Part shown: positions 36,957 through 52,736 of the stretch, piece after piece
Layout: each line of letters begins with the position of its first letter
Position numbering within the stretch: position 1 is the first letter of the stretch
NCBI RefSeq assembly: GCF_000244895.1
Contig: NZ_CM001441.1
Span: 3,182,226 to 3,246,225, forward strand
Source: Desulfosporosinus youngiae DSM 17734
GTDB taxonomy: Bacteria; Bacillota; Desulfitobacteriia; Desulfitobacteriales; Desulfitobacteriaceae
Reading direction: 5' to 3'
DNA length: 64,000 bases
The notes under the pieces: model-generated
Told to the model about the DNA's origin: nothing
Database searches by the model: none
What the model saw: the letters and a program-made list of their open reading frames with translations, nothing else
Translations under genes and position numbers: made by a program

Positions 36957-37111
36957 CTCCCTAGGGAACTTAATGCTGACTTTTAGTTCATCATTACTAT
37001 AGCCGGAGATGTTATAGAGTAGGTAGGCAAAATCAGGAAGATGGTTAAAGTCAAATTACAGTCTAATTACAACATACCTCACGGCAGTTTAGGCATCTGC
37101 TCTCCTCTTTG

Positions 37112-37162
37112 AAAACAAGGACTGATGCTCTGCGAACTTTCTTCGTTTTGCAGCAGTCCCTT
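37112..37162 (-). terminator. terminator of the DUF3102 gene
   Basis: Long imperfect stem AAGGACTG...CTGCGAA / TTTTGCAG...CAGTCCCTT. On the minus strand it ends with TTGTTTTC. Duplicated with the gene end at 52.26-52.32 kb. Confidence 0.6.
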
Positions 37163-37201
37163 CAATTATCCCAAACCGGCCTGCACCTAAATCCGCGGGC
37201 C

Positions 37202-38014
37202 TTACAATCTCTCCGCTATTTTCCCGATCAGCCCGCTTACCTCACTTTTATACGTTTCATGAGCTTCGGGGTCTACCGGAGCTAGCTTAGTCAGTTCCTT
37301 CAATAACTCTTCAAATTCTTTGGCTATACTTTTGTAGAGAAAGCCGACTTTGTTGGCTGTCAGCCCGATCCGGGCGGCTTTGATCTCCTTTTCCAGAGCG
37401 GTGACTTTCACAGCTGAAGCCTCGCTTTGCTTGGCTGCCTCCAGCTTCTCCTGTAACGTCCTGATGGTTAACTCTTTAGTGTGGATGGTCGCTTGAAGAC
37501 CGGAGGCCTGTTTTCTCAACTCATCCCGCTCAAAAATTATTTTAGTGGCTGCGTCTTGGTTAACTTCCAGGGCATTTTGGAGCTCCGCTTTCTCGCTAAG
37601 GGCCTGGTCCCTTTCCAGGACTGCCTGCTTAAGCTCCCGGGTAGACATGCCGGTCACATCATTTTCTGCCATAAATGACTCCCGTTCCTCCTCGGGAATA
37701 CCCAGGAGGATAATTGCCTGGGTGTAGCTCAAATTCGGAATCGATTCCGAATTTGAACCGTTCTGGGCGACGGTCAGCTTGTCCCCATACTCATCAAAGA
37801 CACGCATCAGTTTGTTGGCCGTGCTTTGGGAGTAACTCACCGAACTCTCCAGCCACTTTCCCCATTCTCCATGATTGACCATGGATTTGGCCTCCGCCAA
37901 GCGCCGTCCGATCTCGACTGAGCTGTAAAGCAGCATTCTGCCGGTCTGATCTTTAATACTATTAATTTCGGCCGCTATAATCTGCGGCGTCCGCTCAGTT
38001 AATCCGTTCGCCAT
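37202..38014 (-). CDS. DUF3102-type protein with coiled coil
   Basis: About 270 residues. The N-terminal half has the DUF3102 pattern: 'EIGRRLAEAKSMVNHGEWGK', 'SVSYSQSTANKLMRVFDEYG', then 'LSYTQAIILLGIPEEERESF', as in phage- and plasmid-linked proteins. The C-terminal half (150-250) is a long coiled coil ('LQATIHTKELTIRTLQEKLE'). I start at the ATG at 38014 (GAGGAGC site 10 bases upstream); an earlier in-frame ATG at 38068 is possible. The frame contains a 28-bp perfect palindrome (37729-37756) that recurs outside the gene at 38911. A truncated copy lies at 52350. Confidence 0.75.
   Translation of the reverse strand: MANGLTERTPQIIAAEINSIKDQTGRMLLYSSVEIGRRLAEAKSMVNHGEWGKWLESSVSYSQSTANKLMRVFDEYGDKLTVAQNGSNSESIPNLSYTQAIILLGIPEEERESFMAENDVTGMSTRELKQAVLERDQALSEKAELQNALEVNQDAATKIIFERDELRKQASGLQATIHTKELTIRTLQEKLEAAKQSEASAVKVTALEKEIKAARIGLTANKVGFLYKSIAKEFEELLKELTKLAPVDPEAHETYKSEVSGLIGKIAERL
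37729..37756. repeat. 28-bp perfect palindrome, copy 1
   Basis: Perfect inverted repeat centred between 37742 and 37743 (half-site TCAAATTCGGAATC), inside the DUF3102 reading frame where it encodes 'NSESIPN'. Identical over 28 bp to the palindrome at 38911-38942. Confidence 0.85.
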
Positions 38015-38122
38015 GTTTTTCAAGCTCCTCTTCTTATTCATAAGCTTTTCCGGAGGAAAAGCTCCCATAAGACAAGACGGATTTGAACAATCTTACTCAT
38101 AGCCTATGTGTTCAAGCCCTCA

Positions 38123-38203
38123 CTTGTGACAATAACAAGGGCAAGACCGTAAAGAACGCCGGAGCATAGGCACTTCACGGTTTTGCCCTTATTTTGTCAC
38201 AAG
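38123..38203. repeat. imperfect 27-bp inverted repeat
   Basis: Arms 38123-38150 and 38177-38203 (CTTGTGACAATAACAAGGGC and its near complement) enclose 26 bases, in the divergent gap between the DUF3102 and DUF1659 genes. It could form a long hairpin in RNA from either strand or mark the end of an old element. Confidence 0.6.
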
Positions 38204-38307
38204 TATCCCGGACAAGGGTAACCCCTGCCGGACAAGGTGCATAACATAAGATAAAAAGACCGGCCAAGGCTTGGCCAGTCAAACTTCAAACAAGGGGGAA
38301 ATTATTC

Positions 38308-38532
38308 ATGACTATCATTTCGTCAGGGGTGGAAACCGAAATGGTTGTGCGTTATCAGACCGGGACAACTGCCGAGGGCTCCCCGGTTATCCGGCAAAAA
38401 AGCTTTTCCGGACTGAAGATGGACGTGTCCGATGAGGACCTTTATGAAGCAGCAACCACCTTATTCAATTTGCTGGAATATCCGTTGGTATCCGTGACCC
38501 GGAATAACCGCTTTGACCTGACTGAGGAATAG
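38308..38532 (+). CDS. DUF1659-type small protein
   Basis: 74 residues, soluble: 'GSPVIRQKSFSGLKMDVSDE', then 'LYEAATTLFNLLEYPLVSVT', the usual DUF1659 layout. Such genes typically sit beside a DUF2922 gene, as here (41 bases downstream). Function unknown. An AAGGGGG site precedes the ATG. Confidence 0.8.
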   Translation: MTIISSGVETEMVVRYQTGTTAEGSPVIRQKSFSGLKMDVSDEDLYEAATTLFNLLEYPLVSVTRNNRFDLTEE

Positions 38533-38572
38533 AGGTCTGTTCAATCAATCATAAAGAGGAGGGAATATTAGT

Positions 38573-38812
38573 ATGGCAAATACGCAGCAGAAGACCCTTC
38601 GGCTGACCTTTGCTACAACCCTGGGAAGCACATTTACTCTTACACTGCCGGCACCAAGGGAAGATCTGACTGCCGCAGAAGCTGAGGCCGCTATGGAACT
38701 GATTATCGCAAAAAATATGTTTCTCACTACCGGCGGTGAATTGATCGGCAAGAGAGATATAAAAATTACGGATTCAACTACAACCGATTTATATGATCCG
38801 CCCCAGTATTAA
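38573..38812 (+). CDS. DUF2922-type small protein
   Basis: 79 residues, soluble: 'KTLRLTFATTLGSTFTLTLP', then 'LTAAEAEAAMELIIAKNMFL' and an acidic end, as in the DUF2922 family. AGAGGAGGG ribosome site. Second gene of a pair with the DUF1659 gene. Function unknown. Confidence 0.8.
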   Translation: MANTQQKTLRLTFATTLGSTFTLTLPAPREDLTAAEAEAAMELIIAKNMFLTTGGELIGKRDIKITDSTTTDLYDPPQY

Positions 38813-38910
38813 AGCGCGCCAGACGAGAAATGCCCCGCTTGCCGATGGCAGTTGATTTTTTGCGGCCCTATGGCCGCTCTTATGGATAAAACCCGGCTCC
38901 AACCATGGCA

Positions 38911-38942
38911 GTTCAAATTCGGAATCGATTCCGAATTTGAAC
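38911..38942. repeat. 32-bp perfect palindrome, copy 2
   Basis: Perfect inverted repeat (half-site GTTCAAATTCGGAATC) in the noncoding gap 98 bases after the DUF2922 stop. The inner 28 bp equal copy 1 at 37729. The rest of the gap (38813-39130) shows nothing else. Confidence 0.85.
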
Positions 38943-39130
38943 AGAGACCAGACGACGATCCTCGCTCCCGGTTACATCCGGACAAACTTAAGAATGCGTA
39001 TTACACTCAACCATTTTCGTAGTAGCCAAACAATTTCAACAGTTGGTGAATCCTAAGAACCAAGTCTCAGACAAGTCCGCTTTGATTCCGGATGATACGA
39101 CTCCCGCAAAGACAGGTCGAAGAATTGAAC

Positions 39131-52143: not shown

Positions 52144-52254
52144 ACAAACTCCCTCCTCTATTTAAAATTTTACTTACTTTTACAGTATATTACATATTGT
52201 TCTATTAAAGGTAATTTACGAAAAAATCAATTTGGTTTTTGAGCCATTTTCTAT

Positions 52255-52736
52255 TGAAAACAAGGGGCTGATGCTCCACAAACTTTCTTCGTTTTTGCAC
52301 CAGGCCCTTCAATTATTCGCAAACCAGCCTGCACTTAGACCCGCAGGGCTTACAGTCTTTCCGTTATTTTTCCAATCAGCCCGCTTACCTCATTTTTACA
52401 CGTTTCATGAGCTTCCGGGTCCGCCGGAGCTAGCTTATTCAGTTCTTTCAACAACTCTTCATATTCTTTAGCTATACTGTTGTAGAGAAAGCCTTTGTTG
52501 GCTGACAGCTTGATCCGGACGGCTTGAAGACTGGAGGCCTGTTTTCTCAACTCATCCCGCTCAAAGGTTATTTTAGTGGCTGCGTCTTGGTTGGCTTCCA
52601 GGGCATTTTGGAGCTCCGCTTTCTCGCTAAGGGCCTGGTCTCTTTCCAGAACTGTCTGCTTAAACTCCCGAGTAGACATGACGGTCACATCATTTTCTGC
52701 CATAAATGACTTCCGTTCTTCCTCGGGAATGAACAT
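52255..52736 (-). pseudogene. truncated second copy of the DUF3102 gene
   Basis: The 128-codon frame 52350-52736 matches the C-terminal part of the gene at 37202: 'SFMAENDVTVMSTREFKQTV' against 'SFMAENDVTGMSTRELKQAV', with a 40-codon internal deletion in the coiled coil. The DUF3102 core is missing and the copy starts abruptly at 'FIPEEERK'. The terminator hairpin is duplicated too (52255-52320). Segmental duplication followed by decay. The gap 52737-52961 shows no gene. Confidence 0.75.

Follow-up and report, generated by a model that had tools for sequence, protein, structure and literature searches.

In most DUF3102 genes a near-perfect palindrome of 28 bp occupies one and the same codon position, and the palindrome and the part of the protein predicted to read it appear, from sequence comparison, to change together across more than 100 gene copies from bacteria and phages. 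Our best reading, which we hold with good though not full confidence, is that DUF3102 is probably a ParB/Noc-like protein of phage type and acts as a dimer, binding both the palindrome inside the gene that encodes it and dispersed copies. What stands out is the placement of the putative site inside the protein's own gene, which is unusual. A full-text search of a literature collection turned up DUF3102 in three papers; judged by title and abstract, none deals with the family.

The window, a 64,000-nt stretch of the Desulfosporosinus youngiae DSM 17734 genome, contains two perfect palindromes, P1 of 28 bp and P2 of 32 bp, which can be read directly from its sequence. They lie among the following features:

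37202–38068, minus strand: DUF3102 gene (PF11300, E 1.1e-59), with a predicted ParB/Noc-like DNA-binding domain and, after it, a long coiled coil
37729–37756, no strand: P1, 28-bp perfect palindrome with halves TCAAATTCGGAATC and GATTCCGAATTTGA, in the DUF3102 reading frame
38308–38532, plus strand: DUF1659 gene (PF07872), divergent from DUF3102 and a recurrent DUF3102 partner in this bacterial order
38573–38812, plus strand: DUF2922 gene (PF11148), a recurrent DUF3102 partner
38911–38942, no strand: P2, the P1 palindrome lengthened to 32 bp, perfect and noncoding
37097–38963, no strand: dispersed repeat unit (DUF3102, DUF1659, DUF2922 and P2) with homologous copies

The start of the DUF3102 protein is probably the ATG at 38017, giving 271 amino acids, because an RBS-like AGAGGAG lies upstream and the resulting length is as in relatives. 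P1, whose center falls between 37742 and 37743, encodes S-N-S-E-S-I-P-N-L in frame with DUF3102; in the 288-aa reading these codons are S105–L113, a disordered linker in the AlphaFold model. P2 lies ~100 bp past DUF2922, and the dispersed repeat ends 21 bp to the right of P2. The initial annotation had described two exact copies, one coding and one noncoding and extended to 32 bp, and this is what we find, with the spacing corrected from 1.15 kb to ~1.18 kb (1184 bp start to start, or a gap of 1152 nt between the arms). P1 and P2 are the sole occurrences of their 18-bp core in the window, where shuffles predict 0.03.

Pattern searches of the 5.66 Mb genome found 26 sites within three mismatches of the 28-mer (reversed control, 0), many of them paired at 325–1184 bp. 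For the wider class AAATTC-N12-GAATTT, ~50 sites were listed, and almost all of these are palindromes. The initial annotation had named copies with no link to DUF3102 as a refuting outcome; most copies are in DUF3102 genes or their relics. The 47 sites inspected in retrieved stretches were mostly within DUF3102 relics of varying length, and a few consisted of little beyond the palindrome itself. Most chromosomal palindromes are sites remaining in decayed copies of the gene. The genome has 40 DUF3102 matches, 16 of which are long single matches without an internal stop.

To compare genes, we scored each palindrome as the number of paired positions out of 14, counting at least 10/14 as near-perfect. 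The set comprised 123 intact DUF3102 genes from this genome, its relatives and the phylum, and 102 of them reach this mark with a 28-bp palindrome at a shared codon position; the initial annotation had proposed looking near DUF3102 genes in relatives, and there it is present. With synonymous codons redrawn for the same proteins (200 trials), a mean of 3.7 and a maximum of 9 genes reached this score. In the 82 genes of this and related genomes the score is bimodal, either 9–14 or at most 6. Full-length paralogues in the genome have different palindromes of 26–34 bp at this same codon position. The outer arms are conserved (TCAAATTC...GAATTTGA, with TCAAATTC common to most sites), and the inner half-cores differ with both halves changed, in 47 versions; examples from paralogues are GGAATC, GGATTC, GTCACC, GTCAGC, GTCTGC and CCCAAA, among others. 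The center dinucleotide is pyrimidine-purine in 101 of the 102 bacterial genes. Relics that span the palindrome position have at least 12/14 pairs in 12 of 12 cases, with the rest of the gene broken. The position of P1 is explained by its being part of a DUF3102 gene, not by the edge of a unit. AlphaFold predicts the window protein with a mean pLDDT of 84 and a single poorly ordered internal stretch, residues ~101–110, between helices 81–102 and 115–121; the palindrome codons would thus form a disordered linker, and the protein would therefore tolerate DNA-level constraint there. The only frequent neighbors of the 123 genes are DUF1659 (50 loci) and DUF2922 (49 loci), in either orientation. 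In one locus (L134:2553-7493), two tandem DUF3102 genes 4.5 kb apart have palindromes that differ by one base.

DUF3102 relatives are also encoded in 356 viral stretches, and the family seems to be of phage type. Among 78 distinct viral genes, 55 have a palindrome of at least 10/14 pairs (synonymous null: mean 0.7, maximum 4), and the center is pyrimidine-purine in all 69 viral genes scoring at least 9. The class pattern was matched in 25 of 26 viral records, with 0 matches to the reversed control in all of them, and about half of the 26 have one or two extra sites besides the one in the gene. Most of 16 extra phage sites that we inspected are intergenic, often starting immediately downstream of a stop codon. 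In a tally by eye, the extra sites agree with the in-gene site in the base at half-position 6 (C or G) wherever it is defined in both, apart from a few mixed cases. Such extra sites fit a reader that the phage itself encodes and that acts in trans. A PcfJ-like gene is near DUF3102 in 79 of 80 viral loci (L289–L368), with DUF3102 mostly directly downstream, and the two form a conserved viral pair in the early region; in some viral loci, replication-initiation-type genes follow DUF3102.

If the protein reads the palindrome, its residues should be tied to the bases of the half-site. In the 102 genes, mutual information picks out residue 66 for half-position 11, and residues 85, 86 and 89 for positions 4 and 7. 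The base at position 4 is C in genes with Arg86 (58/61) and A in those that have Lys, Asn, His or Tyr as residue 86 (40/40); in the viral genes with Asn86 and a paired position 4, the base there is A in 58 of 58. Position 11 is G solely with Tyr66 (16/16) and A with His or Phe66 (78/81). On a tree that omits the recognition-helix residues 79–92, residue 66 and the linker, and rests on 95 columns, 11 of the 12 changes at position 4 share their branch with a change of residue 86 (p 3e-13), and 9 of the 10 changes at position 11 share theirs with a change of residue 66 (p 9e-11). The Bonferroni threshold of 6e-5 for 820 tests is also passed by two further pairs: residue 143 with position 2 (p 1.5e-7) and residue 82 with position 5 (p 7e-6). 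Residues beside the palindrome were mostly negative. On strongly supported branches only, the independent pairs agree in 4/4 and 3/3 cases with none disagreeing, numbers too few for significance. Gene conversion that moved helix and palindrome together could be an alternative source of the covariation. ParB contacts parS through its recognition helix, Q162 and helices 6 and 8 (PMC7383237). A hand alignment of LSYTQAIILLG...MSTREL in DUF3102 with LSMGHARALLG...LSVRET would place the covarying residues in the same regions, with residues 116 and 143 falling in those of helices 6 and 8.

The DUF3102 domain is predicted to have a ParB/Noc-type DNA-binding fold, and homology is likely. Residues 25–157 of the full-length AlphaFold model align with Noc-NBS (6y93) at Z 8.4 (rmsd 2.6, 110 aligned), and the model aligns with Spo0J/ParB (1vz0) at Z 8.0, with the caveat that helical domains easily yield middling Z values. 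Using a domain-only model built from an alignment of 89 sequences, and re-aligning Foldseek's own list with VIA, the nine best matches were all Noc or ParB (Z 8.0–6.2, 14–21% identity, rmsd 2.4–3.2 for eight of the nine), among them 7nfu (Z 8.0, rmsd 2.5, 93 aligned), 6sdk (7.3), 7ol9 (7.2) and 4umk (7.1). The next were Raf1 (5.7 and 5.2) and further ParB; no other fold reached 5. On its own, Foldseek returned no E-value below 0.001. Pfam HTH_ParB was weakly matched by 18 of the 89 members (best E 0.0015), and a profile search of PDB sequences returned only coiled-coil or chance matches. Kinship with ParB rests on predicted structure, because a profile-profile comparison with the local Spo0J gave nothing significant. 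The CTP-binding ParB domain is absent: Pfam shows DUF3102 alone, and the model begins with the DNA-binding domain. Neither beside the 123 bacterial genes nor in the phages, where PcfJ recurs, is there a recurrent ParA/Soj partner gene. The palindrome was also considered as the canonical parS TGTTTCACGTGAAACA or a variant of it and rejected, as its sequence differs and the whole genome has one near-parS site. DUF3102 would work like a ParB/Noc DNA-binding domain, yet we do not class it as ParB, because the CTPase domain, the ParA partner and the parS sequence are all missing.

Several known systems invite comparison. ParB/Spo0J with parS and Noc with NBS resemble DUF3102 in the predicted DNA-binding fold, in the protein regions implicated in base contact, and in a palindromic site of two half-sites with a C-G center step. 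They differ in having a CTPase domain and a ParA neighbor, and in a site of 16 bp, against ~28 bp for DUF3102, of unrelated sequence. Unlike ParB and Noc, DUF3102 has many paralogues with different sites per genome, and its site is at a fixed codon across the whole family. In B. subtilis one parS lies within spo0J, so that a site in the gene of its binding protein has a precedent. In-frame palindromes within coding sequence are also known from the Rickettsia palindromic elements, which occur in noncoding DNA as well and are insertions in unrelated genes. A reading of the DUF3102 palindrome as an inserted element of this kind was rejected: an insertion was sought at the palindrome in the DUF3102 alignment and none was seen, the palindrome is confined to a single gene family, and it covaries with the protein. 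The plasmid protein KfrA, an autorepressor and maintenance aid with a helix-turn-helix and a long alpha-helical tail (PMC7783346), shares with DUF3102 the arrangement of an N-terminal DNA-binding domain and a long coiled coil, but its operator consists of direct repeats overlapping the promoter, whereas the DUF3102 site is a palindrome within the gene. Pfam gave no match to the KfrA N-terminal domain, or to anything beyond DUF3102, at E 0.001. KorB of plasmid RK2, a ParB-family repressor (PMC11790492) that acts through several operators, resembles the proposed DUF3102 protein in being of ParB type. It has the CTPase domain that DUF3102 lacks. The operators of KorB are not known to occupy a conserved codon position within the coding region of KorB itself.

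We infer binding, dimerization and their outcome for DUF3102, and would picture them as follows. The protein would be a site-specific DNA-binder with a ParB/Noc-type domain (the helix-turn-helix and following helices) and no CTPase domain. The coiled coil would probably make it a dimer, each half of which would read one half of the 28-bp palindrome, in linker codons of its own gene that tolerate DNA-level constraint. With the site inside the gene, specificity and address would therefore travel as one unit, and paralogues would have different addresses. The most likely outcome would be autoregulation, in which the bound protein forms a block within the gene during transcription, combined with the bridging or organizing of DNA through further copies, as for KorB, KfrA and Noc. 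As the main role, autoregulation is a tentative choice to which we would give a little under an even chance; DNA organization or maintenance in that place is rather unlikely. The earlier suggestion of a binding site for a dimeric protein, perhaps the DUF3102 product, gains support from the conservation across genes, the ParB/Noc-type model and the covariation of half-site and recognition helix.

Palindromes can become perfect by template switching without selection, and in L057 (~2085), L060 (~2072) and L061 (~2101 and 5766) they have grown to 48–66 bp as flanking DUF3102 sequence from upstream was copied in inverse orientation, with loss of the reading frame, an extension that is a signature of this process. 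Template switching is also probably the way in which both half-sites change in one step. A purely mutational origin would have template switching in replication perfect imperfect inverted repeats, and relics spread the palindrome, with no protein reader at all. We think this improbable: it leaves unexplained the fixed codon position across genera and phages, the bound at 28 bp in most genes (pairing per position is 0.72–1.00 up to pair 14, where it is 72%, and 0.28 at pair 15), the pyrimidine-purine center, the covariation with residues 66, 82, 86 and 143, and the intergenic phage copies that share the in-gene core. The compensatory changes would equally be expected of an RNA helix, but that the palindrome is an mRNA hairpin acting in translation control or mRNA stability seems extremely improbable. 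Mismatches at positions 2–14 of the sense strand have no G-U bias (GT+TG 15 vs. CA+AC 47), the symmetry runs nearly to the center without a loop (pairing 0.94 at position 2), noncoding copies exist, and Rfam gave no family match, only sub-threshold, chance-type matches to inverted repeats.

The initial annotation had also raised a mobile unit covering 37.7–38.9 kb. Its right end stands, as homologous copies end at 38963, 21 bp past P2; its left end does not, since the unit reaches ~37097 and P1 is not an edge. If P1 and P2 were the ends at which the unit recombines or transposes, with DUF3102 as the mobility protein, this would account for the 53-nt imperfect inverted repeats that include both palindromes, for the proximity of P2 to the repeat edge, and for dispersed deletion derivatives, two of which (L050 and L054) seem to have lost the stretch between P1 and P2. 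We nevertheless consider it unlikely: the unit continues ~600 bp past P1, no transposase or recombinase recurs beside the 123 bacterial genes, no catalytic domain was found, and most intact genes do not have a second palindrome in the retrieved locus (10 of 95 do). Deletion between 28-bp direct repeats, moreover, needs no special enzyme. Lastly, the sharing of the outer arm by most sites is what a single shared reader might require, and some other dimeric host factor could read the palindromes, with the covariation of DUF3102 being indirect. This is very improbable, as the core variation within one genome would require many such readers and DUF3102 is the only co-encoded factor that varies in step with the palindrome.

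Binding by DUF3102 itself, our preferred reading, would offer a testable function for a domain of unknown function present in hundreds of viral contigs. The family provides a natural series of more than 100 putative protein-DNA pairs, each with protein and target encoded by a single gene. The recognition code of a ParB-like domain could be deduced and put to a direct test, and the pairs might be used as orthogonal DNA labels in the way that ParB/parS and Noc/NBS already are. The palindrome would also be a clear case of coding sequence under DNA-level constraint, probably from its own protein product. More speculatively, and in our view with odds well below even, these genes might be self-addressed units, with specificity determinant and target in one gene, each duplicated or transferred copy founding an orthogonal protein-DNA pair. 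They might then act as a phage or element identity tag (in incompatibility, exclusion or DNA organization), and the dozens of orphan palindromes might be decoys or anchors on the host chromosome.

In Desulfosporosinus, DUF3102 has become part of the dispersed DUF3102-DUF1659-DUF2922 repeat. Its right edge is sharp at ~38963 in many copies and its left edge lies at ~37097–37109, and many copies are left-truncated or internally deleted. When an empty site of the window unit was sought across the genus, the flanks were found in different genomes and none was clean. The window holds a second fragment of the repeat 15 kb away, at 52254–52730, which does not have the palindrome part and is 86–94% identical to 37109–37380 and 37491–37699. 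To the right of the unit, at 39025–39130, is a repeat of ~105 bp with copies of 78–87% identity in several other Desulfosporosinus genomes. Another repeat, noncoding and ~100 bp long, has ~10 copies in the genome (L262–L271, for example L262:1453-1561), with palindromes of CCCAAAC or GTAAGC core, some of them 50–66 bp, followed by GGATTAGCAAGTAAAAGGGTACCCTATGGTACCCC; the CCCAAAC core is that of the DUF3102 gene in L021. At L180:1869-2147 the flanks are joined gap-free in three relatives (G004, G012 and G014), and the ~280 bp present in this genome are therefore an insertion, made up of several small repeats that include a 70-bp repeat very abundant across the genus.
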